Shown: positions 34,025 to 46,309 of the stretch, piece by piece | Layout: each line of letters starts with the position of its first letter | How positions within the stretch are numbered: the first letter of the stretch is position 1 | From: Megalodesulfovibrio gigas DSM 1382 = ATCC 19364 | Lineage (GTDB): Bacteria; Desulfobacterota; Desulfovibrionia; Desulfovibrionales; Desulfovibrionaceae | Length of the DNA stretch: 46,391 nt | Direction of reading: 5' to 3' | Assembly (NCBI RefSeq): GCF_000468495.1 | Contig: NC_022444.1 | Coordinates: forward strand, 370,200 to 416,590 | Made by a program: the position numbers and the translations under genes | The notes under the pieces: generated by a model | What the model saw: the letters and a program-made list of their open reading frames with translations, nothing else | Told to the model about the DNA's origin: nothing | Databases searched by the model: none

Positions 34025-34633
34025 CTAACAGTGCTCTTTTTCGCCTTCCTCCCAGCCGGTGCACATGGCCTTCACATGCGCGAAGACGCTATGCCCGGTG
34101 GTGGTCATGTACACATGCACGACGAGGAACTGCAGCACCAGGAACGCGCCCACGGTGTGCAGGGCTGCGGCCGTGCCCAGCTGCATGACGATGCCCAGGG
34201 CGTCCCAGTCGTTGTAGAAGTAATAGAGGAAGCCGGTGAGCATCTGGAACGGCAACAGTGCCGACACAATGCCCAGATACGTGAGCCGCTGCAGGGGATT
34301 GTGCTTGACGTCCGGCTGCTTGCGCACGGGATGCGGCTCGCCCTTGAAGATGCCCCACATGTAATGCCGCATCACGGCCATGAGCTTTTTGGCTGTGGGG
34401 GTGTATTGCTTCCATTCCCCGGTGGTGGCCAGCCAGAAGATGCCGAAGCAGAAGAGCACAAACCAGCCCAGTCCGCACCAGATATGCAGTTCATGCGCCA
34501 GCTTGTAGCCAAAAAGCGCATAGGTGCCGTGCAGCTCGAAGCCTGTGAGCAGCAGCGTGATGACCAGGGCTGCCTGCAGCCAGTGGTTGATGCGCTCGAA
34601 CCGCGTATAGCAGTAGAATCGCGTGGCGCTCAT
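34025..34633 (-). CDS. Cytochrome b561-type membrane subunit of the octahaem reductase operon
   Basis: 202 aa with four or five membrane helices. The N-terminus YTRFERINHWLQAALVITLLLTG, split at INHW, is typical of the bacterial cytochrome b561/formate-dehydrogenase-gamma family. Histidines that could bind two b haems are seen at INHW, KLAHELHIW, AALHTVGAF and VVHVYMTT. Such subunits oxidise menaquinol and pass electrons to periplasmic partners. It starts 2 bp after the octahaem cytochrome gene, so they are translationally linked and probably form one complex. Confidence 0.85.
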   Translation of the reverse strand: MSATRFYCYTRFERINHWLQAALVITLLLTGFELHGTYALFGYKLAHELHIWCGLGWFVLFCFGIFWLATTGEWKQYTPTAKKLMAVMRHYMWGIFKGEPHPVRKQPDVKHNPLQRLTYLGIVSALLPFQMLTGFLYYFYNDWDALGIVMQLGTAAALHTVGAFLVLQFLVVHVYMTTTGHSVFAHVKAMCTGWEEGEKEHC

Positions 34634-34635
34634 GG

Positions 34636-36273
34636 TCAGCTCCTTTTCTTGGATGCGATGACACGGGCCAGACCGTGCATGAACACGCCGGCCAGGGACA
34701 GAATCACCAGACCCCAGCCGAGCTGGTCGATGACGGAGACGCTGTCGCGCCCGGGCATGTAGAACCCGGCCAACTGCTGCAGGCGGCTGTTCTCGCGTGT
34801 GTGGCAGGATTCGCAGGCCAGGCTCTGTTCCTTGGGCGCCACCATGTGCGTGGTCTGGAACACGTAGCTCGTCTCCACAAAGCCGTACTCGCCGGAATAT
34901 TCCTGCTTGATGTAGTCCATGCCCGCGGCAATGGCCTTGGCCCAGTCGTAGCTCTTCCAGTATGCGGCGTCGTCCTTGCCGAAGAGATGCGGAATGACGA
35001 AGCGCTTCAACTTGGTGTCATAGGGCTGCTTGCCGGTGTGCATCTTGAACGGGTAGATGCGGGAATTGACGTCTTCCCGAGCCCCCACGGGCGAATTGAT
35101 GGCCACGCGGGTGTCGGGATTGATGGTGTCGTCGATGGTCAGGTATTCCATGGTCCCGTTGAACCATGCGTAAACCGGCACCACATTTTTCTGCCAGTCG
35201 AAGTCGCCCTTCTTGGAGTCGTAAGACGAGACTCCGAATTCATTCTTGGTCTTGAACGGCTTGCCGTCCTTCATCTTGCCGGCGGTGGACCAGTCCCAGC
35301 TCATCTTGGTGGCCAGTTCCCGGGCAAAGGCGGGGATGTGGCACGTCTGGCAGGCCACCTTGTCGGTGTGGTCATTGGCCTTCACACCCGGCTTGTGCGG
35401 GGTGCTGGTGTGGCAGGATTCGCAGGTAATGCGCGAGACGGTATCGTCCTCCACCAGACTCTTGCGATGGGTGGCGGCTGGTGTCTTGTAGCAGCGGCCG
35501 GCGATGCGGTGCGCCTCGGTGGTATGGCAGCGCGCGCAGGTGAAGTTGGCGCCGTCCTTGGCCATGTGCACATCCAGGGTGCGCGGCGGATTGACCATGG
35601 AGGAATCCAGATCCCCATGCTTCACGGCGTCGCCACCGCCACCATAAAAGTGACAGTTGCCGCAGTTGGTGCGGTCCGGCCGGCCCACGCCCTGGGCCAC
35701 CTTGTTCCAGTCCGGCGGCAGATAGGTGGTGTTGTCCTCGGGAAAGACCGTGGGCTCGGAGACGGGATTGCCGGCCATGGTGGGGAACTTCTTATAGGTG
35801 CCGGTGCGGTCATGGCAGACCAGACAGTCAATCTTGTTGGCGTCGGAGAAGTCGAACGTCTTGTCCTTGAAGCCGTAGCCGATGTGGCAGGAGGTGCAGC
35901 GCGGCTCGTTCGAGGGCACGGCCACGCAGAAGTTGTTCAGCGTTTTTCCATACTTGCCCATGGTGCCCGTCTCGTCATGCGGGCACTTCCAGGTCCAGTG
36001 GATGGTCTTGTGGATCTGGCTGGCCGCCTCGGTGTGGCAGGAAAGGCAGGCCTTGGTCACCTCTGGTCCGGACGTGAAGTTCCCTTGCAAGGCCGGGAAC
36101 TTGGAATGATCCGCCGTAATCCACCGCGTTTCCTTGGGGGCATGGGCCAGGGGCTGCGGCGCCGGCTGGGACGCCAGACTGACGGCCGCGATGGCGGTCA
36201 GCAGCATTACGGCCCCCAACAGGGCCAGGGCCGGTCCGGCCCGCCAGTGAATGGATGTGCTGCGAATTCGCAT
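34636..36273 (-). CDS. Octahaem c-type cytochrome, tetrathionate reductase (Otr) family
   Basis: 545 aa, exported through a signal or anchor segment (about 12-35). Eight CXXCH haem sites occur at residues 76, 126, 150, 204, 246, 284, 308 and 487. The length, the long haem-free stretch 313-486 and the late eighth haem fit the octahaem tetrathionate reductase type known from Shewanella, which also reduces nitrite and hydroxylamine in vitro. A C-terminal membrane helix (about 515-537) anchors the protein. GGGAGGAG precedes the ATG. Operon partners supply quinol oxidation. The natural acceptor (tetrathionate, nitrite or other) cannot be read from sequence. Confidence 0.88.
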   Translation of the reverse strand: MRIRSTSIHWRAGPALALLGAVMLLTAIAAVSLASQPAPQPLAHAPKETRWITADHSKFPALQGNFTSGPEVTKACLSCHTEAASQIHKTIHWTWKCPHDETGTMGKYGKTLNNFCVAVPSNEPRCTSCHIGYGFKDKTFDFSDANKIDCLVCHDRTGTYKKFPTMAGNPVSEPTVFPEDNTTYLPPDWNKVAQGVGRPDRTNCGNCHFYGGGGDAVKHGDLDSSMVNPPRTLDVHMAKDGANFTCARCHTTEAHRIAGRCYKTPAATHRKSLVEDDTVSRITCESCHTSTPHKPGVKANDHTDKVACQTCHIPAFARELATKMSWDWSTAGKMKDGKPFKTKNEFGVSSYDSKKGDFDWQKNVVPVYAWFNGTMEYLTIDDTINPDTRVAINSPVGAREDVNSRIYPFKMHTGKQPYDTKLKRFVIPHLFGKDDAAYWKSYDWAKAIAAGMDYIKQEYSGEYGFVETSYVFQTTHMVAPKEQSLACESCHTRENSRLQQLAGFYMPGRDSVSVIDQLGWGLVILSLAGVFMHGLARVIASKKRS

Positions 36274-36294
36274 GGATCTCCTCCCTTCCTCAGG

Positions 36295-36768
36295 CTATGG
36301 TGCAAGGCGGCCCGCGCTGCGCCGCCGGATGATCCAGCTTGCCAAAGCCAGCCCGCCCCAGGCCATGGCCAGGACCAGATGCCCGATATCCACCGCCATG
36401 CCCGTGCCCTTGGATACGCCGCCCGTGGGCAGGTTCTTCCAGACACGGATGAAGCCCGTGAGCACGAGCCCGGCAATGGCTGCAAGCTGAGCCCAGTGCA
36501 GCCGCGTCATGCGGAGATGGCTGATGCGGCCGAGGCGACGGGACGCCAGGGCCTCGCCGGCGCGCAGGGCCACCAGGGCCAGGAACACCGCCGCGGCAAG
36601 GTAGTGGATGATGTGCGTGACGTAAAAATCCGCCGTCCAGGCCAGGCCGGGGATGTCCGCAATGTAATAGCGCTTGAAGATGGGCATCTGCCCCAGGCCG
36701 GAAATGGCCAGGGCCAGCACCGCCAGGGCAAAGAGCCGACGTTCGATCCATGGACGAGGCTTATTCAT
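36295..36768 (-). CDS. Small four-helix membrane protein, likely cytochrome b
   Basis: 157 aa with four membrane helices at about residues 10-27, 47-70, 88-110 and 126-146. Histidines within or near helices (THIIHYLAAA, RLHWAQLAA, VDIGHLVLAM) are placed to ligate haem b. The gene overlaps the end of the ferredoxin gene by 8 bp and precedes the octahaem cytochrome by 21 bp. With the ferredoxin it could form a quinol-oxidising module. I do not recognise a named family with certainty. Confidence 0.7.
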   Translation of the reverse strand: MNKPRPWIERRLFALAVLALAISGLGQMPIFKRYYIADIPGLAWTADFYVTHIIHYLAAAVFLALVALRAGEALASRRLGRISHLRMTRLHWAQLAAIAGLVLTGFIRVWKNLPTGGVSKGTGMAVDIGHLVLAMAWGGLALASWIIRRRSAGRLAP

Positions 36769-37732
36769 GGTCCGCCCCCCGCTTCATCCGGCTGACCGTC
36801 CGCAGGGCCGCCCCGGCCAGACCGGCCAGGGGCGCCGCCACCAGGGCCGCTGCCAGCAGGGTCTGATTCTCAAACGGGTCCTCCACCGCCGCCAGATGCG
36901 GCCGCCCCGGCCCCTTGGCCCGGGAAGCCTCCAGCGTCTCGAAGGGTACGGGAGAGACGTAGATGGTGTTGGTGCCGCCGTTCTCGTCAAGGCCGTACAC
37001 AAAGCCGTGCATTTCCGCCGCCAGGGCCTTGGCCTTGGCCACGATCTCCTCGCGCGGGCCGATCTGCTGGACCTCGAAGGGACAGGCCTCGATGCAGGCC
37101 GGCAGCTGCCCTGCATCCAGCCGGGCGGCACAGCGGTCGCACTTGTACATGACGCCGTTGCCGGCAAAGCGAGGCAACAAATCCAGGTACAGGCCCACGC
37201 CGGTTTGCCGTTGTGGGATGGACCAGGGGCAGACATCCCGGCACTTGGCCCCGCCCAGGCAGGTGACTGGATCGATTTCCACCACGCCGCGGTCGTCCTT
37301 GCTGCAGGAGCCCCAGGGGCAGAGATTGGCGCAGGGCGGATTCTGGCAGTGCATGCAGCGCCGCGGCATGTGCAGCTCGAAGGGCTGGCCGTCGCGCTGC
37401 CCCTCGAAGTGATCGATGTACAGCCAGGTGTACGGGGTGAGGCGGTCGTCCACCTCGCGCTTGTCAGACCAGTCCTCGACCTTCACACGCTTGGGCAGCA
37501 TGGGCGGGAACGGCTTCTTGGGCTCGGGAAATCTGGCGGCGTTGGCATCCTTGCAGGCCTGGGCACAGGCGCCGCAGCCCACGCATTTGGACAGATCCAG
37601 CAAGGTGGCCAGCTCCCCGGAGTGCGGCGAGGCGGCCCGGGCCGGTGCAGCAGGCAAGGCAGCCGTGGCCCCGGCCACGCCCAGGAGCCCCAGGCCCCCC
37701 AGAAATTGGCGACGAGAAAGGGGTGTTGTCAT
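36761..37732 (-). CDS. Tat-exported four-cluster ferredoxin-type subunit (HybA/DmsB-like)
   Basis: About 323 aa. The N-terminus has a twin-arginine signal, SRRQFLGGLGLLG. Four cysteine groups follow: CVGCGACAQAC, CMHCQNPPCANLC, CLGGAKCRDVC and CDRC with CIEAC, enough for four [4Fe-4S] clusters as in DmsB/HybA electron-transfer subunits. A C-terminal membrane helix (LLAAALVAAPLAGLAGAAL) would tether it on the periplasmic side, as in HybA. The ATG at 37732 has AAGGA 9 bp upstream; an ATG two codons earlier is too close to it. First gene of the minus-strand respiratory operon. Confidence 0.88.
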   Translation of the reverse strand: MTTPLSRRQFLGGLGLLGVAGATAALPAAPARAASPHSGELATLLDLSKCVGCGACAQACKDANAARFPEPKKPFPPMLPKRVKVEDWSDKREVDDRLTPYTWLYIDHFEGQRDGQPFELHMPRRCMHCQNPPCANLCPWGSCSKDDRGVVEIDPVTCLGGAKCRDVCPWSIPQRQTGVGLYLDLLPRFAGNGVMYKCDRCAARLDAGQLPACIEACPFEVQQIGPREEIVAKAKALAAEMHGFVYGLDENGGTNTIYVSPVPFETLEASRAKGPGRPHLAAVEDPFENQTLLAAALVAAPLAGLAGAALRTVSRMKRGADHE

Positions 37733-37784
37733 GAACATGCATCCTTGTATTCCACCGCGCTGATGCGGGATTTTGGTACAATGT

Positions 37785-37801: not shown

Positions 37802-37891
37802 GATACAAGCATGGCGGGGAATAAATCTGCAACGTGCTGATTCCACTGGTCGGCATGCCCGCGGCCCTTGCGCTTTCCGGAGGTGATGTCT

Positions 37892-39394
37892 ATGCTGATG
37901 TCTAATCACATCGACACATGTCGAAACACCTTCTGCACCTGGCTTGAGGCATCCATGTTCAAAACCCCTCAGCTTTCCGCCGTCTGCAACACGCTGCAGG
38001 AAGGGCTGGTGCTCATCGGGGCGGATGGTCGCATCCAGGCCGTGAATCCGGCCATGGAAAAACTGACCGGCTATACCGCGGGCGAGCTCATCGGCCAGCC
38101 CTGCACCATCCTGCAGTGCGACGTGTGCGAGAAATCCCGCCGTGAGGGCCGCGACCACTGGTGCCGGCTGTTCGACACCCGCCAGGAGCACCGCCGCCGG
38201 TGCCGGATCCTGCGCAAGGACGGGGCGTCCGTGCCCGTGCTCAAGAACGCCTCGCTGGTGATGGAGGGGGAGCAGGTGCTGGTGGCCGTGGAGACCCTGA
38301 CCGACCTGACCGAGCTGGATCTGCGCGACCGCAAAATAGAAGAGCTGACCCGCCGCGTGGAGGAAGCGCCAGGGTTTCATGGGCTGGTGGGCATGAGCGC
38401 GCCCATGCGCAGGCTGTTCAAGTCCATTGAGCGTGCCGCCGGCAGCGACGCGCCGGTGCTCATCCTGGGCGAGTCCGGCACGGGCAAGGAGCTGGTGGCC
38501 CATGCCCTGCATGCCCTGGGCGCGCGGCGCGACGGGCCGTTTATCCAGCTCAACTGCGCGGCGCTCAACGAATCCCTGCTGGAAAGCGAGCTGTTCGGCC
38601 ATGTGAAGGGCGCCTTCACCGGCGCGGTGCGGCATCGGCAGGGCCGGTTCGAGGCTGCCCACGGCGGGGATCTGTTCCTGGACGAGATCGGCGACATCCC
38701 CGTGCCCATGCAGGTCAAGCTCCTGCGCGTGCTGGAGACCAAGGAAGTGGAACGCGTGGGGGACAACCGCCCCATGCCCGTGGACGTGCGATTCATCTCC
38801 GCCACCAACCGCAACATCCCGGCCCTGGTGGCGGAAGGCACCTATCGGGAAGATTTTTATTATCGCATCAATGTCCTGCCCCTGCACGTCCCGCCCCTGC
38901 GGGATCGGCTGGAGGACATTCCCCTGCTGGCCGAGCATTTTCTGCACACCATCGCCGCCCGCAGCGGCCGCTGCGCCTTCAGTCTGGACCGCCCTGCCCT
39001 GGAGGCCCTGCTGCGGCACCCGTGGCCCGGCAATGTGCGCGAGCTCAAAAGCGCCCTGGAATTCGCCGCCATCCACGCCGAGGCCGAAACCGACGGCCGC
39101 ATCGAGGTCTGCCACCTGCCTGCCACGGTGCAGGGGCAGGCCCTGTGCCCGCCGCCCCAGACTGCCGCCACCCGGCACGCCGACGACGGGCTGAGCGCCG
39201 ACGAACACGCGGAAAAAAACGCCCTCATCGCCGCACTGCAGGAAGCCGGCGGCAACAAGAACGCCGCGGCGCGCCTGCTGGGCGTGCACCGGGGCACCAT
39301 TTTGAACAGAATGCGCAAATATGGCGTTGATGTGCAAAAATCCGTGGCAGCCAACGCGGCGAATAATTCGACAAATATGGTGAAATCACGATAG
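37892..39394 (+). CDS. Sigma-54-dependent activator with cysteine-rich PAS sensor domain
   Basis: 500 aa. A PAS domain covers about residues 28-140 and holds Cys71, Cys76, Cys79, Cys91 and Cys104 (from CTILQCDVC onward). The AAA+ domain has Walker A GESGTGKE, the sigma-54 loop GAFTGA, Walker B GGDLFLDEIG and the arginine-rich C-terminal part. A Fis-type helix-turn-helix ends it (NKNAAARLLGVHRGTILNRM). The start at 37892 has GGAGGTG 6 bp upstream. Desulfovibrio OrpR is a known sigma-54 activator that senses redox through an Fe-S cluster in its PAS domain, and this protein may work likewise. It diverges from the octahaem operon. Confidence 0.9.
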   Translation: MLMSNHIDTCRNTFCTWLEASMFKTPQLSAVCNTLQEGLVLIGADGRIQAVNPAMEKLTGYTAGELIGQPCTILQCDVCEKSRREGRDHWCRLFDTRQEHRRRCRILRKDGASVPVLKNASLVMEGEQVLVAVETLTDLTELDLRDRKIEELTRRVEEAPGFHGLVGMSAPMRRLFKSIERAAGSDAPVLILGESGTGKELVAHALHALGARRDGPFIQLNCAALNESLLESELFGHVKGAFTGAVRHRQGRFEAAHGGDLFLDEIGDIPVPMQVKLLRVLETKEVERVGDNRPMPVDVRFISATNRNIPALVAEGTYREDFYYRINVLPLHVPPLRDRLEDIPLLAEHFLHTIAARSGRCAFSLDRPALEALLRHPWPGNVRELKSALEFAAIHAEAETDGRIEVCHLPATVQGQALCPPPQTAATRHADDGLSADEHAEKNALIAALQEAGGNKNAAARLLGVHRGTILNRMRKYGVDVQKSVAANAANNSTNMVKSR

Positions 39395-39419
39395 AAATCA
39401 ACATCCCCCTCGTTTATAT

Positions 39420-39486
39420 TTGACACTGCACGGCCGAGTTGTGTAGTTCCCGACGACGGGCAGCCATGCAGGAAAAATCCTGCATG
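39420..39486 (+). promoter_or_regulatory. Candidate promoter and leader hairpin of the tetrahaem cytochrome gene
   Basis: TTGACA (39420-39425) lies in the 111-bp gap, with a poor -10 (TGTAGT) 16 bp later. CATGCAGGA (39465-39473) pairs perfectly with TCCTGCATG (39478-39486) around an AAAA loop, 19 bp before the ATG. The hairpin may mark an operator or mRNA structure near the ribosome site GGGGGAG. Confidence 0.4.
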
Positions 39487-39505: not shown

Positions 39506-39979
39506 ATGCACATTTTCCATGGCGTATGGATGCCGGCAATCGTGCTGGCATCCGTGCTTTGTTGCATTCCCGAAGCGTTACGCGCCGGCGAGGGGCTGGT
39601 GTATGTGGGCTCCAAGGCGTGCGCGGACTGCCATGCCGAGCAGTATGAACGCTTCGAGGCGCATTCCAAAAAACCGCACTCCTGGAGAAGCGTGGAAATC
39701 ATGCGCTCCAACCTCAAGCCGGCGGAGCTGCAGGAGTGTTACGACTGCCACACCACCGGCCACGGCAAGCCGGGCGGGTTCGTCAGCTACGAAAAGACCC
39801 CGCATCTGGCCGAGGTGGGCTGCGAAACCTGCCACGGCCCTGGCAGTGCGCATGCCGAAGCCGGTGACACCAGCCTCATCACCCGTCGCCCGGCCATCGA
39901 GACCTGCAAGACCTGCCACAACGAGACGCGGGTGCAGGACTTCAACTTCAAGCCGCTGCTCTTCAGCGGCGCCCATTAA
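39506..39979 (+). CDS. Periplasmic tetrahaem cytochrome c (c554-like)
   Basis: 157 aa with a signal peptide ([20 protein letters not shown]). Four CXXCH sites are at residues 39, 78, 106 and 134. The spacing and the segments [18 protein letters not shown] and [13 protein letters not shown] resemble the cytochrome c554 group of small electron carriers. Extra histidines ([16 protein letters not shown]) could be distal ligands. The next gene, a haem-binding chemoreceptor, starts 11 bp downstream, so the cytochrome may feed electrons to, or share a signal with, that sensor. Confidence 0.88.
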
Positions 39980-39990
39980 AGGAGCGGCCT

Positions 39991-42009
39991 ATGCTCGCAC
40001 GCATTCGCTCCTCCCTGGCCCTCCGGCTGGCCCTGCTGGTGGCGGGCCTGTGTTTTGCCGTCTTTGTCGTCCTGGCCTGGATGGGCAACGCCAGCCAGCG
40101 CGACAACATGCTGCATCAGCTTGCGGAATCCATGGATGACGAGGCCGAGCTGCTGTATCTGTCCATCGAAAAGCCCATGATCGTGGGCGACGATGCATCC
40201 ACCCGCAAGGAATTCGCGACCCTGGGCCGCAAATTCACGGAAACCTCGCTCTATCTGACAGACTTCACCGGCAACATCACCTACTCCACCACTTCCTCTG
40301 ATGTCCGCCGCGACTTTGCCCAGGCGGTCAACGTGCCGGCAATCCAGGCCATGCTGCAAAAAGGCCTGGCCCAGCCCATCCGGGAGGGGTCTTTGGTGCA
40401 AACAGACGGCCGCAGCCTGTTTGTAGAAGTCTTTTCCGTGGAGAATCAGCCGTCCTGCCACCATTGTCATGGTGCATCGGAACCCATCCTGGGCTGCATG
40501 GTCATCATGAAGAATGTGGACCCGGCCATGGCAGCCATCGCAAACCAGACCTTCAACTCCGCCCTGTACTCCCTGGCCGGGGGCGTGCTGCTGGTGGGGA
40601 CCCTGCTGGCCTTTTTGCGCCGCGTGGTGCTCCGTCCCATCACCCGTTTGGCCGCCGCCTCCGATGCCGTGGCCGCCGGCAACTATGCCAGCCACTTCAT
40701 CCTGCCCGGTTCCGACGAGCTGGCCGCCCTCTCCCGCAACCTGGAAGCCATGCTCCAGGAAATCAAGACCCGGCTCGGCTTTGCCCAGGGCGTGCTCAAG
40801 GGCGTCACGTATCCGTGCGTGCTGGTGGATCCCGACAACACCATCCTCTACTGCAATCAGGAGCTGCTCTCCCTGTTCCAGAAACGCGGCCGGCCAGAGG
40901 ACTACCTGCAGACCAACGCCTCGGTATTTTTCTATGACGACGCCTCCCGGGACACCACCGCCCTGCTGGCCGTCAGGCAGAACCAGCGTCAGGCCCGGGA
41001 GCTCACCTTCCGACTGCCGTCGGGCGAACTGACCGTGAACATCAGCGCCACGCCCATCACCGATCTGGACGGCAAGCCCCTGGGCGGCTTCGCGCTGTAT
41101 TTCGACCTCACGGCCATCCGCGCCCAGGAGGCTAGAATCGCCAGCCAGAACGTGCAAATGCAGGAAATCGCCGCCCAGGCCCGCATCATCATGGATCGTC
41201 TGGTTGCCTCGTCCGAGGAACTGGCCAGCCAGGTGGAGGAGACGGCCCAGGGCGCCCACGACCAGCACCAGCGCACCCGACAGACGGCCGCCGCCATGGA
41301 AGAAATGAACGCCACCGTGCTGGAGGTGGCCGGCAGCGCCAGCAACGCCGCCCAGTTGACCGAAGACATGCGGCAGGAGGCTGGCCAGGGCGAAGCCGTG
41401 GTGGATGAAACCGTGGCCGCCATCGGCAGCGTGGCCCAGGAAACCCAGAGCCTGCAGCGGGCCATGGAAGAGCTGGACAAGCAGGCCGAGGGCATCGGCG
41501 CCATCATGCAGGTCATCCAGGACATCGCGGACCAGACCAACCTGCTGGCCCTGAATGCCGCCATCGAGGCTGCCAGGGCAGGCGATGCAGGCAGGGGCTT
41601 TGCCGTGGTGGCCGACGAGGTGCGCAAGCTGGCGGAAAAGACCATGACCGCCACCAAGGACGTGGCGCAATCCGTCTCTTCCATCCAGGCGGGGGTACGC
41701 AAAAACTCCCAGGCCGTGCACGTGGCGGCTTCGTCCGTGGACAAGGCCACCAATCAGGCCCGCCACTCCCGGGACGCCCTGGAACGCATCGTCACGCTGG
41801 CGGGGCAGGCCTCGGATCAGGTGCGCAGCATCGCCGCAGCCAGCGAGCAGCAGAGCGCGGCCAGCGAGGAAATCACCCGTGCCGTGGAGGCCATCCACGG
41901 AATTGCCAACGAAAACTCCCTGGCCATGGCCGAGGCCTCCAAGGCCCTGAACATCCTGGCCGGCCTGGCTTCGGAACTGGAAACGCTGGTCCAGCAGCTC
42001 AATACATAA
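39991..42009 (+). CDS. Haem-binding methyl-accepting chemotaxis protein (DcrA-like)
   Basis: 672 aa. Membrane helix 1 (about 9-30), a periplasmic sensor domain (31-190) with a c-type haem site CHHCH at 156-160, membrane helix 2 (about 191-210), HAMP (about 208-260), a PAS-like domain (about 265-375) and a full chemoreceptor signalling domain with the [18 protein letters not shown] hairpin tip. Desulfovibrio vulgaris DcrA is a chemoreceptor with periplasmic c haem reported to sense oxygen or redox potential, and this protein has the same plan. AAAGGAG is 6 bp before the ATG. Closely linked to the tetrahaem cytochrome gene. Confidence 0.92.
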
Positions 42010-42036
42010 GGCGAATATCGTTGGAGCAAGCGCGTT

Positions 42037-42082
42037 GCGCGAGGGGAAAACCTTTCGGCAAGAAAGGTTTTCCCCTGGGCGC
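42037..42082. terminator. Convergent terminator after the haem chemoreceptor gene
   Basis: GCGCGAGGGGAAAACCTTTC (42037-42056) pairs with GAAAGGTTTTCCCC and a GGGCGC end, giving a long stem with a 5-nt loop. It lies between converging genes and belongs to the dispersed hairpin family. Confidence 0.75.
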
Positions 42083-42102
42083 ATGGTTCAAAAGCAAACG
42101 CC

Positions 42103-42637: not shown

Positions 42638-42666
42638 TTGACCGGGACCTTAATTGACCACATACT
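42638..42666 (+). promoter_or_regulatory. Candidate promoter of the GT2 glycosyltransferase gene
   Basis: TTGACC (42638-42643) and CATACT (42661-42666) are 17 bp apart. A start of transcription near 42674 would exclude the TTG at 42654 and supports the ATG at 42714. The nonamer TTGGCAAGG occurs twice upstream (42539 and 42588). Confidence 0.55.
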
Positions 42667-42713
42667 CGCGCCGCATTGCAACCACCACCCCCTCACCGAG
42701 GTTTAAGAAAGCT

Positions 42714-44210
42714 ATGGAACTCCTGGTCGTTATCTACATCGTCTGTGCGACCATCCTGACCATCTACGGCATCAACTGCCACGTGATGACGCACTTGTTT
42801 CAGCGTCGCGTGGCTGAATCGCGCAAGCGCGATGCCGCCGATCTGGAGGCCTTCTACGGCTCCCAGGGCCTGACTGTGGCCAACTCCGCCTGCGCCCGGC
42901 TGCCTCGTGTGACCACGCAGATTCCCATTTACAACGAAGCCAACGTCATCGCCCGGTGCATCGACGCCTGCGCGGCCATGGAATACCCTGCCGGCATGCA
43001 TGAAATCCAGGTTCTGGACGACTCCACCGACGAAACCCGCGACATCGTGGCTGCCAAGGTGGCCGAATGGCGCGCCAAGGGTGTGGACATCGTGCAGGTG
43101 CACCGCCCCGACCGCAAGGGCTTCAAGGCCGGCGCCCTGCGCTACGCCCAGGAATTCTGCAAGGGCGACTACATCGCCATCTTTGACGCAGACTTCGTGC
43201 CGCCCAAGGACTTCCTGCTGCGCTCCATCCCCTATTTTGTGGATCATCCCGAAATCGGCTTTGTCCAGGGCCGCTGGGACCACCTGAACCGCGACGAGAG
43301 CCTCATCACCCAGCTGCAGGCCGTGGGCATCGACGGGCACTTCATGATCGAGCAGAGCGCCCGCAACTACAATGGCCTGTACCTGAACTTCAACGGCACT
43401 GCCGGCGTGTTCAGCAAGAAAGCCATCTACGATGCCGGCAACTGGCAGGATGACACCCTGACCGAAGACATGGACCTGTCCTACCGCATCCAGCTCGTGG
43501 GCTACGACTGCCGCTTCCTCATCGATCTGGCCGTGCCTGCGGAAATCCCGGCCGACATGGCCGCCTTCAAGGCGCAGCAGTTTCGCTGGGCCAAGGGCTC
43601 CATCCAGACGGCCATCAAGCTCATGCCCCAGGTGATGATGCACAAGGGCTCCTTCTTCAAGAAGTTCCAGGCCTTCATGCACATGAGCCACTACGGCGTG
43701 CACCCCATCATGCTGTTCCTGGCCATTCTGGCCATGCCCGTGATGGCCATCGGCAATATCGGCTTTGAAGGCATGCCCTTCCTGGTCTTCATCACCCTGC
43801 TGCTGCTCTCCTGCTCCGGCCCCAACCGGCTGTACATGACGGCGCAGCGCGCCCTGGGCCATTCCTTCTGGAAGACCCTGGCGCTCATCCCGGCCATGGT
43901 GCTCTTCGGCTGCGGTCTGGCTGTGAACAACACCAAGGCCGTCATTGAAGCCGTGATGGGCAAGCAGAGCGCCTTTGTGCGCACGCCCAAGGCCGGCGTG
44001 AACGGCGGCGTCAAGCAGTACAAGGCCTCCCGCTCCAAGCAGCACATGTGGGAACTGCTGGCCGGCTCCTGGTGCATGATCGGCGTGGTGTGCTACTTTG
44101 CCGACGGCCACTATGCGGTGGGCCCCTTCCTGCTCATCTATGCCCTGGGCTTCCTGGGTGTGGGCGCCATGACCGTGGGGAACGCCTTCAAGTGGCTGCG
44201 CAACAAGTAG
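42714..44210 (+). CDS. Membrane GT2 glycosyltransferase (cellulose-synthase/glucomannan-synthase-like)
   Basis: 498 aa. One N-terminal membrane helix (LLVVIYIVCATILTIYG), a cytoplasmic GT-A domain and about four C-terminal helices. The processive GT2 motifs are complete: DDSTDET (UDP-binding Asp), DADF (metal-binding DxD type), TEDMDLSYR (catalytic ED) and QQFRWAKG (QxxRW). This layout is that of CslA/BcsA-related enzymes that make beta-glycans or glycolipids. Product unknown. No PilZ domain or other cellulose-synthesis genes are nearby. Ribosome site near the ATG is weak (AAGAAAG). It precedes another glycosyltransferase gene. Confidence 0.88.
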   Translation: MELLVVIYIVCATILTIYGINCHVMTHLFQRRVAESRKRDAADLEAFYGSQGLTVANSACARLPRVTTQIPIYNEANVIARCIDACAAMEYPAGMHEIQVLDDSTDETRDIVAAKVAEWRAKGVDIVQVHRPDRKGFKAGALRYAQEFCKGDYIAIFDADFVPPKDFLLRSIPYFVDHPEIGFVQGRWDHLNRDESLITQLQAVGIDGHFMIEQSARNYNGLYLNFNGTAGVFSKKAIYDAGNWQDDTLTEDMDLSYRIQLVGYDCRFLIDLAVPAEIPADMAAFKAQQFRWAKGSIQTAIKLMPQVMMHKGSFFKKFQAFMHMSHYGVHPIMLFLAILAMPVMAIGNIGFEGMPFLVFITLLLLSCSGPNRLYMTAQRALGHSFWKTLALIPAMVLFGCGLAVNNTKAVIEAVMGKQSAFVRTPKAGVNGGVKQYKASRSKQHMWELLAGSWCMIGVVCYFADGHYAVGPFLLIYALGFLGVGAMTVGNAFKWLRNK

Positions 44211-46309
44211 GCCCGCCGCGTTGCCTGCCGGCCCCCCTGCTGGGCTGCGCCGCCTGTCTGGCGGTCATGACCCAGCTGGGAGGCATCGGCCGCAACGCCC
44301 CGGCCATGGCGGCCCTCTGGCTCGCCGGCTTCGCGCTCCTGATCGTCTTTTACACGGGGACCGTCCGCAAGGATGGTCCCCGTTTGTTTTGGCCCATCCT
44401 CACCCTGGGCCTGCTGCTGCGCGGCCTCTTTTTTCTGCAGCTCGACGTCTCCAACGACGTCTATCGCTATGTCTGGGAAGGCTGGCTGCAGCTGCAGGGC
44501 ATCAATCCCTTTGCCTGGACGCCGGACGCCCCTGCCCTGGAGCCCCTGCGCGGCGGGCCCATGGCCTCCATCTGGCCGCACATCAACCATAAAGACTACG
44601 CCGCCGTCTATCCGCCCCTGGCCCAGCTGGTGTTCCGCCTGGCCGCGGCCTGCGCTCCCACGGTCCTCGCTGCCAAGACTGCGGTGCTGGCCTTCGAGCT
44701 GCTGACCCTGGCCTGCGTGGCCCGGCTGGTGCGGATCCGCGACCTGCCCGACGCCGCCCTGGCCCTCTACGCGCTCAACCCGCTGGTGCTGCTCTATTTT
44801 TCCGGCGAAGGACACCTGGACGCCATCATGGCCGGCTGCACGGCCGTGGCCCTGTTGTGCTTTCAGAAGAACCGGCCCGACTGGGACCGCCTGGGCTTTT
44901 GCTTCCTGGGTCTGGCCGGCATGGCCAAGTTCCTGGCCTTTGCGCTGCTGCCATGTTTTGTCACGCGCCGCAACGTCCGCGGGCTTTGGTGGGCCGCCCT
45001 GCCCCTTGTGCTCTGGCTACCGTTTGTGGATGCCGGCCCGGCCCTGCTGGAGTCCGTCCTGCAGTTCGGCCGGGAGATGCACTTCAACGATGTCCTGTGC
45101 AGTCTGCTGCGGCCGGTCTTCGGCGCGGCCACGCCCCTGGCTGCGGGCCTGGGCCTGCTTGTGACCCTGGCCGGCATCTGGCTCTCCGTGCAGGAACGGC
45201 TGCGCGCCGCGTTCCTGAGCAGTCTGGCGGTGCTGGTCTGGCTGCCCACCCTGCACCCCTGGTATCTGCTGCTGCCGGCCATGCTGCTGCCCCTGTTCCC
45301 CTCCCGGACGGTCCTGGCCCTCATGGGTGTGCAGGTCTGGACCTTTGCCGTGTACCACGTGGAATACCAGACGGGCATGTTTGCGGAAATCACCTGGCTG
45401 CGGGATCTGGCCCACCTCCCCGTGCTGGCCCTGCTGGTGCGGGGGCTCTGGCGAAGCGATGCCCTTTTGCCGCGGCGCTATCCGCCGCCGGCATCCCTGA
45501 GCGTCATCATTCCCGTGCTCAACGAGGCCGAGCGCCTGCGCCACTGTCTGGGCTCCCTGCGTCGGGCCGTGACCACGCTGCAGCACGCCCTGCCGCATCA
45601 GCGCCCCGTGGCGGTGGAAATCCTCGTGGCCGACGGCGGTTCCTACGACGACAGCCTGGACGTGGCCCGGGAGACGCGCTGTCTGGTGATCCATGCCCCG
45701 CGCGGCCGGGGCCGGCAGATCGCCGCGGCGGCCGACGTGGCCAGCGGCGACGTGCTCCTCATTCTGCATGCGGACGTGACCATCCATCCCGATGCCCTGG
45801 TGCGACTGGTGCACCTCCTGGACACCCGGCCCGAGGTCGTGCATGGCGCCCTGGGCATGGGCTTCGAATCCCGGCAGGACGAGTGGTGGGTCATCGCCAT
45901 GCTCAACGCCCTGCGGGCCCGCTGCACAGACATCTGTTTCGGGGATCAGGCCCAGTGGATCCGCCGCGAGCCCCTGCGGCAACTGGGTGGCTTTCCTGCA
46001 CAATGGCTCATGGAGGATGTGGAACTCTCCCTGCAGGCCAAGGAGCTTGGCCCGGCGCACGTCCAGCCCTGGCGGCAGGCCGGCGTCACGGCCTCCACCC
46101 GCGGCTGGCAGCGCAAGGGGCTGGGGCAGGGCTTGCGCGATGTGCTGTGGCTCTTCTTCCGCTACCTCGTCGAGCGCCGGCTGGGCATCGTGCAGGAGCA
46201 GGATCCCGAGGCGCGGCGCTACTACGAACGCTACTACGGCCGCGCCGCCCGGGAAGCCTGGGAAATCGAAGACGAATTTGAGATCGAGATCGAACGCTCC
46301 GTCTGGTGA
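44192..46309 (+). CDS. Fused glycosyltransferase: GT-C mannosyltransferase-like membrane domain plus GT2 domain
   Basis: About 705 aa. Residues 1-430 hold about ten to twelve membrane helices with the GT-C-like loop NDVYRYVWEG and the AVYPPLAQLVF motif found in GT87/mannosyltransferase-like proteins. From about residue 435 a soluble GT2 domain begins (SLSVIIPVLNEAERL, VADGGSYDDS, ILHADVTIHPDAL, FGDQAQWIRR, WLMEDVELS), resembling the small rSAM/selenodomain-associated transferase 2 family. The start is uncertain: the GTG at 44192 overlaps the previous gene by 19 bp and keeps the first helix, whereas the ATG at 44267 would cut into it. Possibly acts in glycolipid or surface-glycan assembly. Confidence 0.8.
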   Translation: MAAQQVGPPRCLPAPLLGCAACLAVMTQLGGIGRNAPAMAALWLAGFALLIVFYTGTVRKDGPRLFWPILTLGLLLRGLFFLQLDVSNDVYRYVWEGWLQLQGINPFAWTPDAPALEPLRGGPMASIWPHINHKDYAAVYPPLAQLVFRLAAACAPTVLAAKTAVLAFELLTLACVARLVRIRDLPDAALALYALNPLVLLYFSGEGHLDAIMAGCTAVALLCFQKNRPDWDRLGFCFLGLAGMAKFLAFALLPCFVTRRNVRGLWWAALPLVLWLPFVDAGPALLESVLQFGREMHFNDVLCSLLRPVFGAATPLAAGLGLLVTLAGIWLSVQERLRAAFLSSLAVLVWLPTLHPWYLLLPAMLLPLFPSRTVLALMGVQVWTFAVYHVEYQTGMFAEITWLRDLAHLPVLALLVRGLWRSDALLPRRYPPPASLSVIIPVLNEAERLRHCLGSLRRAVTTLQHALPHQRPVAVEILVADGGSYDDSLDVARETRCLVIHAPRGRGRQIAAAADVASGDVLLILHADVTIHPDALVRLVHLLDTRPEVVHGALGMGFESRQDEWWVIAMLNALRARCTDICFGDQAQWIRREPLRQLGGFPAQWLMEDVELSLQAKELGPAHVQPWRQAGVTASTRGWQRKGLGQGLRDVLWLFFRYLVERRLGIVQEQDPEARRYYERYYGRAAREAWEIEDEFEIEIERSVW

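Follow-up and report, generated by a model that had tools for sequence, protein, structure and literature searches.

A two-gene unit of Megalodesulfovibrio gigas DSM 1382 encodes a predicted exported tetrahaem cytochrome and, directly downstream, a methyl-accepting chemotaxis protein (MCP) with a putative covalent haem site in its periplasmic domain. The unit lies in the 46,391-nt stretch that we analyzed, called the window below (positions 370200 to 416590 of the 3,693,899-base contig NC_022444.1). The two genes were found side by side across the order of this bacterium and across its phylum. A high-scoring cytochrome was never seen in a genome without a haem receptor of the same compartment, and a working partnership is therefore the best explanation. 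A functional linkage of cytochrome and receptor is nearly certain. On balance, the cytochrome is probably the dedicated redox partner of the receptor, setting the state of the receptor haem by electron exchange. The two genes and the gap between them are as follows.

39506 to 39979, plus strand: gene for a c554-family c-type cytochrome with four haem motifs, predicted to be exported, 157 residues, ATG start (open reading frame; Pfam PF13435).
39980 to 39984, plus strand: AGGAG, ribosome-binding site of the receptor gene, read from the sequence, directly after the cytochrome stop and inside the 11-base gap.
39991 to 42009, plus strand: gene for a haem-containing methyl-accepting chemoreceptor, 672 residues (open reading frame; Pfam MCPsignal E 1.1e-43, HAMP 1.2e-10, PAS_9 4.2e-8).

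An initial annotation, made from the letters of the window, had described a tetrahaem cytochrome gene 11 bp upstream of a receptor with a CHHCH site. Both reading frames were recovered, the receptor ATG at 39991 lies 11 bp past the cytochrome stop, and the CHHCH motif at 40456 to 40470 is in the receptor, upstream of HAMP. Because the gap is only 11 bp, the two genes are probably cotranscribed.

Pairing was examined in the genome of the window together with 98 others from its genus, family and order, 99 in all (genomes and loci are cited by our numbers, G and L). The cytochrome search gave 78 matches with E values up to 1.4e-22, which were kept, and two at 4.2e-6 (G050 and G089), which were dropped. 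The sensor search used profile A3, made from 42 periplasmic-domain sequences; 89 matches were kept and eight with E values of 4.9e-8 to 2.7e-5 were dropped. The surroundings of all 78 cytochromes were fetched, and two genes were called a pair when they lay on the same strand within 2.6 kb. Seventy-one of the 78 cytochromes had a sensor, and 71 of the 89 sensors had a cytochrome. Counted by genome, 60 had both, 38 had neither, one had a sensor alone, and none had a cytochrome alone. The sensor-only genome was G022, whose sensor is cut off at a contig end. If the dropped rows were counted, G089 would have a cytochrome alone, by a weak match, and G085 and G093 would each have a sensor alone, also by weak matches.

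The cytochrome gene came first in 69 of the 71 pairs, and the receptor gene came first in L052 and L103. Gaps between the two, counted from the last matched codon, were 10–17 bases in 37 of 62 measured pairs. The receptor was an MCP in 70 pairs; in the remaining one (L085) the contig ends within the gene. One of the seven unpaired cytochromes (G001) sits at a contig end; the other six are weighed below. Public genomes were also scanned with the sensor profile alone. Among the best 80 of 208 loci, mostly Desulfovibrionales by title, 69 had a cytochrome gene on the strand of the sensor in the sequence fetched around it.

The phylum sample consisted of 297 genomes drawn evenly, the window's own included, and sensor profile A3 and cytochrome profile A2 were run separately. 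Cytochrome scores were bimodal, with a gap between E values of 4.6e-46 and 3.1e-30. Our claims are limited to the 36 rows at E ≤ 1e-45, a cut-off chosen after the gap in the scores was seen. A looser tier at E ≤ 1e-24 (45 of 53 paired) was set aside because it covered only some of the rows in that range, those left out being mainly frames of 400–500 residues. All 36 cytochromes had a sensor on the same strand within 1.5 kb. Outside the window's family, upper-group cytochromes were paired in 30 of 30 cases, with the sensor downstream in every one. Thirty-four genomes carry an upper-group cytochrome, and each of them has a sensor at E ≤ 1e-10. From the sensor side, 34 of the 44 sensors at E ≤ 1e-20 were paired. 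The initial annotation had named non-conservation in related genomes as grounds for giving up its idea; the pairing holds throughout the order and also phylum-wide, and those grounds fell away.

The lower group of cytochrome scores also held pairs, eight of which (L237–L244) combined a divergent CxKCH sensor with a divergent cytochrome. The cytochromes of these eight were without the C-terminal Gly-Ala-His. In the CxKCH branch, the two partners have changed in step.

The 30 pairs outside the family (L207–L236) comprised 25 MCPs, three hybrid histidine kinases and two with undecidable outputs, one of which ends early (L225) and the other of which is cut off (L232). The hybrid kinases (L218, L228 and L229) had two receiver domains each by Pfam. 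Because these pairs include both MCPs and hybrid kinases, it is the sensor domain that the cytochrome accompanies, irrespective of output, and not chemotaxis alone. For the CxKCH pairs, L237 and L242 were histidine kinases by Pfam and L238–L241 by motif; L243 and L244 were without an output call.

The distances among cytochromes and among sensors were also compared. For 69 of the 71 pairs, the two distance matrices correlated with r = 0.667. In the 14 genomes with two pairs, partners were swapped, and the true pairing ranked first of 16,384 arrangements, with a median of 0.555 for the swaps. The test points to partners that were not reshuffled and says nothing on contact.

The cytochrome carries four CxxCH motifs, and its features are listed here.

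39506 to 39586, plus strand: N-terminal hydrophobic segment, predicted export signal (sequence by eye; helices 8–19 and 21–26 of the model).
39620 to 39634, plus strand: haem site 1, CADCH, residues 39–43 (C, C and H in 109 of 109 main-group homologues).
39737 to 39751, plus strand: haem site 2, CYDCH, residues 78–82 (C, C and H in 109 of 109).
39821 to 39835, plus strand: haem site 3, CETCH, residues 106–110 (C, C and H in 109 of 109).
39851 to 39853, plus strand: His116, candidate distal haem ligand (invariant, 109 of 109 homologues).
39905 to 39919, plus strand: haem site 4, CKTCH, residues 134–138 (C, C and H in 109 of 109).
39974 to 39976, plus strand: C-terminal His157, candidate distal haem ligand (near-invariant, 108 of 109 homologues).

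Pfam Cytochrome_C554 (PF13435) matched the protein with an E value of 1.3e-21 and 77.8 bits, against a gathering score of 20.8, and the four motifs start at residues 39, 78, 106 and 134, which places it in the c554 family. The CycA equivalog NF043010 gave 48 bits, under its curated cut-off of 400, and the tetrahaem cytochrome c3 family (PF02085) gave 16.8 bits, under its gathering score of 22.9. A phmmer search of the PDB found 1bvb, cytochrome c554, with an E value of 2.1e-9. The predicted structure had a predicted local distance difference test (pLDDT) score of 83. Foldseek with this model also placed 1bvb best, with an E value of 4.9e-3, and gave zero matches at 0.001 or below. VIA-align matched 1ft6 with Z 9.2 and a root-mean-square deviation (rmsd) of 3.9 over 126 aligned residues. 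The N-terminal segment suggests export, and the CxxCH motifs of cytochrome and receptor suggest haem attachment in both, so that covalent haem in the periplasm would be common to the two proteins.

Outside the CxxCH motifs, H116 and H157 were the only conserved histidines among the 109 main-group homologues. H58 was His in 63 of 109, K56 was conserved in 107 and M66 in 94. Because just H116 and H157 are kept, two of the four haems are without a conserved distal His. These two may be ligated by Lys or Met, or may have an open position. As a side observation, many genomes of the phylum had c554-like domains in frames of 400–500 residues among the weaker matches to the cytochrome profile. These are possibly UshA-like proteins, and NCBIfam NF041198 hints so for the window cytochrome.

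The receptor has the following parts.

40093 to 40545, plus strand: sensor domain in the periplasm, a single Cache fold into which a c-haem site is inserted (model, profile and fold searches).
40177 to 40179, plus strand: Met63, candidate sixth haem ligand (Met in 42 of 42 aligned sensors of the close set and 101 of 110 of the broad set).
40456 to 40470, plus strand: CHHCH covalent haem site, residues 156–160, from the sequence; one such site in the receptor.
40612 to 40767, plus strand: HAMP domain, residues 208–259 (Pfam).
40816 to 41112, plus strand: cytoplasmic PAS domain, residues 276–374 (Pfam).
41359 to 41901, plus strand: MCP signalling domain, residues 457–637 (Pfam).

The CHHCH motif lies between two hydrophobic segments, judged by eye, and before HAMP, an extracytoplasmic position as in haem-Cache sensors. 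N152, C156, C159, H160 and G168 were invariant in all 110 sensors of the broad set; H158 was His in 102 and Lys in eight. L235 and L236 read CLHCH and CTHCH at the haem site. CxHCH Cache kinases with no adjoining cytochrome were also noted (L128, the same as L201; L167, the same as L190; L175, the same as L192; L193; L196–L199; L202; and L204).

An AlphaFold2 model of the sensor domain, made with the 42 aligned sensors, had a pLDDT of 96.2. The first Foldseek match was 3b42_B (GSU0935), with an E value of 6.4e-6 and a poor rmsd of 14.3, and 3b47 (GSU0582) was also listed. VIA-align placed Cache-type domains on top (WalK, Z 14.3, rmsd 2.5, 132 aligned residues), and its matches included chemoreceptor Cache domains, in line with a single Cache fold. 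Using hmmsearch with the sensor profile, 3b42 was found with an E value of 2.4e-6 and 3b47 with 1.3e-4, a relation at profile level. A phmmer search with the window sensor domain as a single sequence found neither structure. Of Pfam PF21563 and PF11845, neither scored above its cut-off in the window receptor; the relatives L218, L221, L225 and L242 passed PF21563. Met63 aligned to position 26 of the 3b42 chain and the haem His to position 110, in a weak segment of 4.3 bits. If the haem His of 3b42 is taken as His144, the Met at chain position 26 is residue 60, the published ligand of GSU0935. The window sensor domain thus models as a relative of the Cache sensors of GSU0935 and GSU0582.

Parts of this pair have known counterparts. 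CycA of Nitrosomonas is paired with hydroxylamine oxidoreductase. Cytochrome c554 (CycA) of Nitrosomonas europaea (PDB 1bvb, 1ft5 and 1ft6) has four haems and matches the window cytochrome in sequence and fold. The window protein differs from it in being shorter, in falling outside the CycA equivalog and in having a receptor as its partner.

On the receptor side, DcrA of Desulfovibrio vulgaris Hildenborough (Fu, Wall and Voordouw 1994; Yoshioka 2005; cited in PMC3460858) is a chemoreceptor whose c-type haem is periplasmic and whose PAS domain is cytoplasmic, described as a sensor of O2 or redox (PMC8396549). Oxygen and redox potential were posed as an either-or in the title of Fu et al. 1994 (cited in PMC3460858), and review accounts still offer both. 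The window receptor shares the chemoreceptor output, the haem position and the PAS domain with DcrA as so described. Unlike the window receptor, DcrA is described alone, and a cytochrome partner goes unmentioned in the accessible part of that account (PMC8396549). All eight genomes of the Desulfovibrio sp. A2 genus, which includes Nitratidesulfovibrio liaohensis, held one pair, one solo sensor and one solo cytochrome; in G103 the paired sensor is split into two pieces, and in G102 it is incomplete. The DcrA orthologue may be one of these two receptors, the paired or the solo one.

GSU0935 and GSU0582 of Geobacter sulfurreducens (PDB 3b42 and 3b47) share their domain family with the window sensor by profile and fold search, and also have MCP output. 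In GSU0935, Met60 binds the reduced haem and leaves on oxidation, with a potential of −251 mV; the haem potential of GSU0582 is −156 mV, and structure 3b42 is a swapped dimer (as described in PMC8396549). Met63 of the window receptor is the residue aligned with Met60, in the weak segment given above. Identity to 3b42 was 18–19% in the Foldseek alignments, and sensors of the window type differ in being mostly CxHCH and in having a tetrahaem cytochrome gene attached.

A 2026 preprint reclassifies the domain of the sCache_heme or Tll0287-like family (PF11845) as a haem-bearing Cache (PMC12889525). In that study, a fused example bound NO (nitric oxide) tightly and gave no stable complex with O2, as would a sensor of NO rather than one of O2; stand-alone versions were assigned redox roles (PMC12889525). 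This family and the class 40H sensor PF21563 share with the window sensor a single Cache, an inserted CxxCH and fusions to MCP or histidine kinase outputs. The account differs from ours in that a cytochrome-c-like fusion is given only for Flavobacteria, and the words "operon" and "multiheme" are absent from the main text as accessible (PMC12889525). The Esn system of Geobacter was considered as a parallel and rejected, since the Esn receptor is described, in the portion available, without a periplasmic domain (PMC5585712). No mention of the cytochrome–receptor pairing was found in the literature searched, which was accessible in part and covered few subscription papers. The receptor kind (DcrA and GSU0935), the cytochrome family and the haem-Cache domains were already known; the pairing with a c554-type cytochrome appears new, a search of this kind being no proof of absence.

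As a dedicated redox partner, the cytochrome would form one sensory module with the receptor, acting in the periplasm while the receptor spans the membrane. It would dock on the Cache domain and exchange electrons with the receptor haem, which would thereby be coupled to the electron pool of the periplasm or to an oxidant encountered first by the cytochrome. An altered oxidation state of the haem would make or break its bond to Met63, and the ligand change would be relayed via HAMP and PAS to the kinase of the chemotaxis system. The genes, their close linkage, the predicted folds and the conservation of the haem and Met residues are what we observed; docking, exchange of electrons and the switch of ligand are steps that we infer. 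That the cytochrome passes electrons to this haem is a reasonable idea, given that the sensor is of the GSU0935 and GSU0582 kind, for which a redox-linked ligand change is published (PMC8396549, as accessible), and that the Met is conserved. If true, this would be a two-protein sensor in which a transmembrane receptor learns the state of the respiratory chain at its periplasmic end directly from a cytochrome. A partner beside the sensor also gives a handle, as deletion or titration of the cytochrome would separate electron input from gas input. We suggest tentatively, as an idea that could well fall either way, a swappable "wired sensor" with the tetrahaem cytochrome as its input wire. The cell would steer or signal by the oxidation state of a carrier and not by a free ligand, the same input would be reused with different outputs, and the CxKCH branch would have its own cytochrome branch.

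Several observations weigh against a dedicated redox partner. Eighteen of the 89 sensors in the 99 genomes had no adjacent cytochrome gene (10 histidine kinases, six MCPs and two truncated), and 0 of the 10 kinases within the order were paired. The kinase calls for these solo sensors were made by sequence motif, not Pfam, and the MCP calls by motif included the variant LNATIEAA. In the phylum, 10 of the 44 strong sensors were unpaired (L201, L247–L254 and L265), with zero same-strand frames of at least two CxxCH in the surroundings read; in two of them (L252 and L254) the contig end is too near for an upstream gene to be visible. Six cytochromes away from contig ends were also unpaired. G016 and G061 are plain exceptions, and G021, G038, G051 and G088 each have a cytochrome and a sensor that are both unpaired, as though a pair had split. 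The swap test is no proof of contact, because close linkage alone yields the same outcome. By analogy with the NO-binding fused relative (PMC12889525, as accessible), the signal may be a gas and may not depend on electrons. The initial annotation had proposed that the receptor reads electron flow rather than oxygen. That reading is supported in part: the pairing proved to be conserved, but the choice is wider than electron flow or oxygen, since a fused relative is reported to behave as an NO sensor (PMC12889525).

We consider it unlikely, though worth serious attention, that the cytochrome handles the signal molecule itself. One or two of its haems, with an open or weakly held sixth position, would act on NO, O2, nitrite or hydroxylamine by binding or reducing it, and so deliver, remove or reset the ligand seen by the receptor haem. 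The protein has four haems, yet H116 (109/109) and H157 (108/109) are its sole near-invariant extra histidines, and the His at position 58 is kept in just 63 of 109, whereas K56 (107) and M66 (94) are conserved. The nearest solved structure is cytochrome c554, in which one haem is five-coordinate and which can reduce NO. Cytochrome c554 of Nitrosomonas is, however, itself an electron carrier, we know of no enzyme activity for the present cytochrome family, and the missing ligands could be Lys or Met. The NO-sensor properties of the fused-family sensor (PMC12889525, in its accessible part) are a further point for ligand handling.

Co-regulation without contact seems to us improbable. The two proteins would share an oxygen or redox-stress response, and the cytochrome would be a general periplasmic carrier. 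Small gaps and shared transcription suffice for linkage, and four genomes (G021, G038, G051 and G088) hold both genes apart. A general carrier would be expected without a sensor too, yet 0 of the 60 cytochrome genomes lack one, and 36 of 36 strong phylum cytochromes adjoin a sensor. Within the fetched stretches, other neighbours in the window were not kept with the pair, the octahaem, iron–sulfur and high-identity sigma-54 genes being common only to the same-genus genome. It is very improbable that the receptor senses O2 or NO directly through its haem, in the manner of DcrA, and that the cytochrome only aids biogenesis or protection of this haem. A haem-attachment helper would be required by the solo sensors too, and c-type haem is attached by the general Ccm machinery. 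The existence of solo sensors without a cytochrome agrees with direct sensing, as does the description of DcrA as an O2 or redox sensor (PMC8396549, as accessible). Chance adjacency is refuted by the 71 of 78 and 36 of 36 adjacent cytochromes and by the named loci, and its probability is negligible. The role of dedicated redox partner is the one that we prefer.

The 3' end of the unit may be marked by the following feature.

42042 to 42076, plus strand: 15-bp hairpin 3' of the receptor stop, which may end the unit (fold energy of 42010–42090).

The region 42010–42090 had a fold energy of −40.4 kcal/mol and a z of −4.86. The hairpin has no T tail and is absent from the terminator-scanner list of the window. 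It sits between the receptor gene and a convergent glyoxalase-like gene. A weak promoter-like match, scored by consensus only, was found at 39392–39420.

Upstream of the pair, positions 34025–37738 of the minus strand hold a cluster of an octahaem cytochrome, a 4Fe-4S protein, a b-type cytochrome and a small protein. The octahaem cytochrome belongs to the tetrathionate-reductase family (TIGR04315, 636.8 bits against a cut-off of 375). The b-type cytochrome is thiosulfate-reductase-like with a score under the cut-off, and the small protein has a weak b561 match in Pfam. A PAS sigma-54 activator at 37868–39394 is divergent from this cluster. The octahaem cluster (34–37.7 kb) and the activator were considered as members of the module and dropped, since they are not kept with the pair elsewhere. 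The neighbour-gene search covered the 78 cytochrome loci with up to about 7 kb per side, many stretches being shorter. The octahaem and iron–sulfur genes were found at only two of the 78 loci, in the window genome and the same-genus genome. The activator had 88% identity to its match in the same-genus genome and 39–45% to matches in five other genomes, the latter being expected of a large family.

Some minor observations were made on the pairs and the window. Apparent fusions of the cytochrome and sensor genes in the long frames L079, L048 and L220 were rejected, as the extra residues resemble out-of-frame translation of upstream DNA. A plasmid search with the sensor gave zero matches. At L035, L042, L046 and L075, a second, haem-less MCP of about 780–800 residues lies on the same strand, 2.2–2.6 kb past the cytochrome. 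Downstream of the receptor, positions 42654–46309 hold a membrane-type glycosyltransferase (Pfam) and then a long frame, which by eye resembles a fusion of two glycosyltransferases, one of them of the membrane type.

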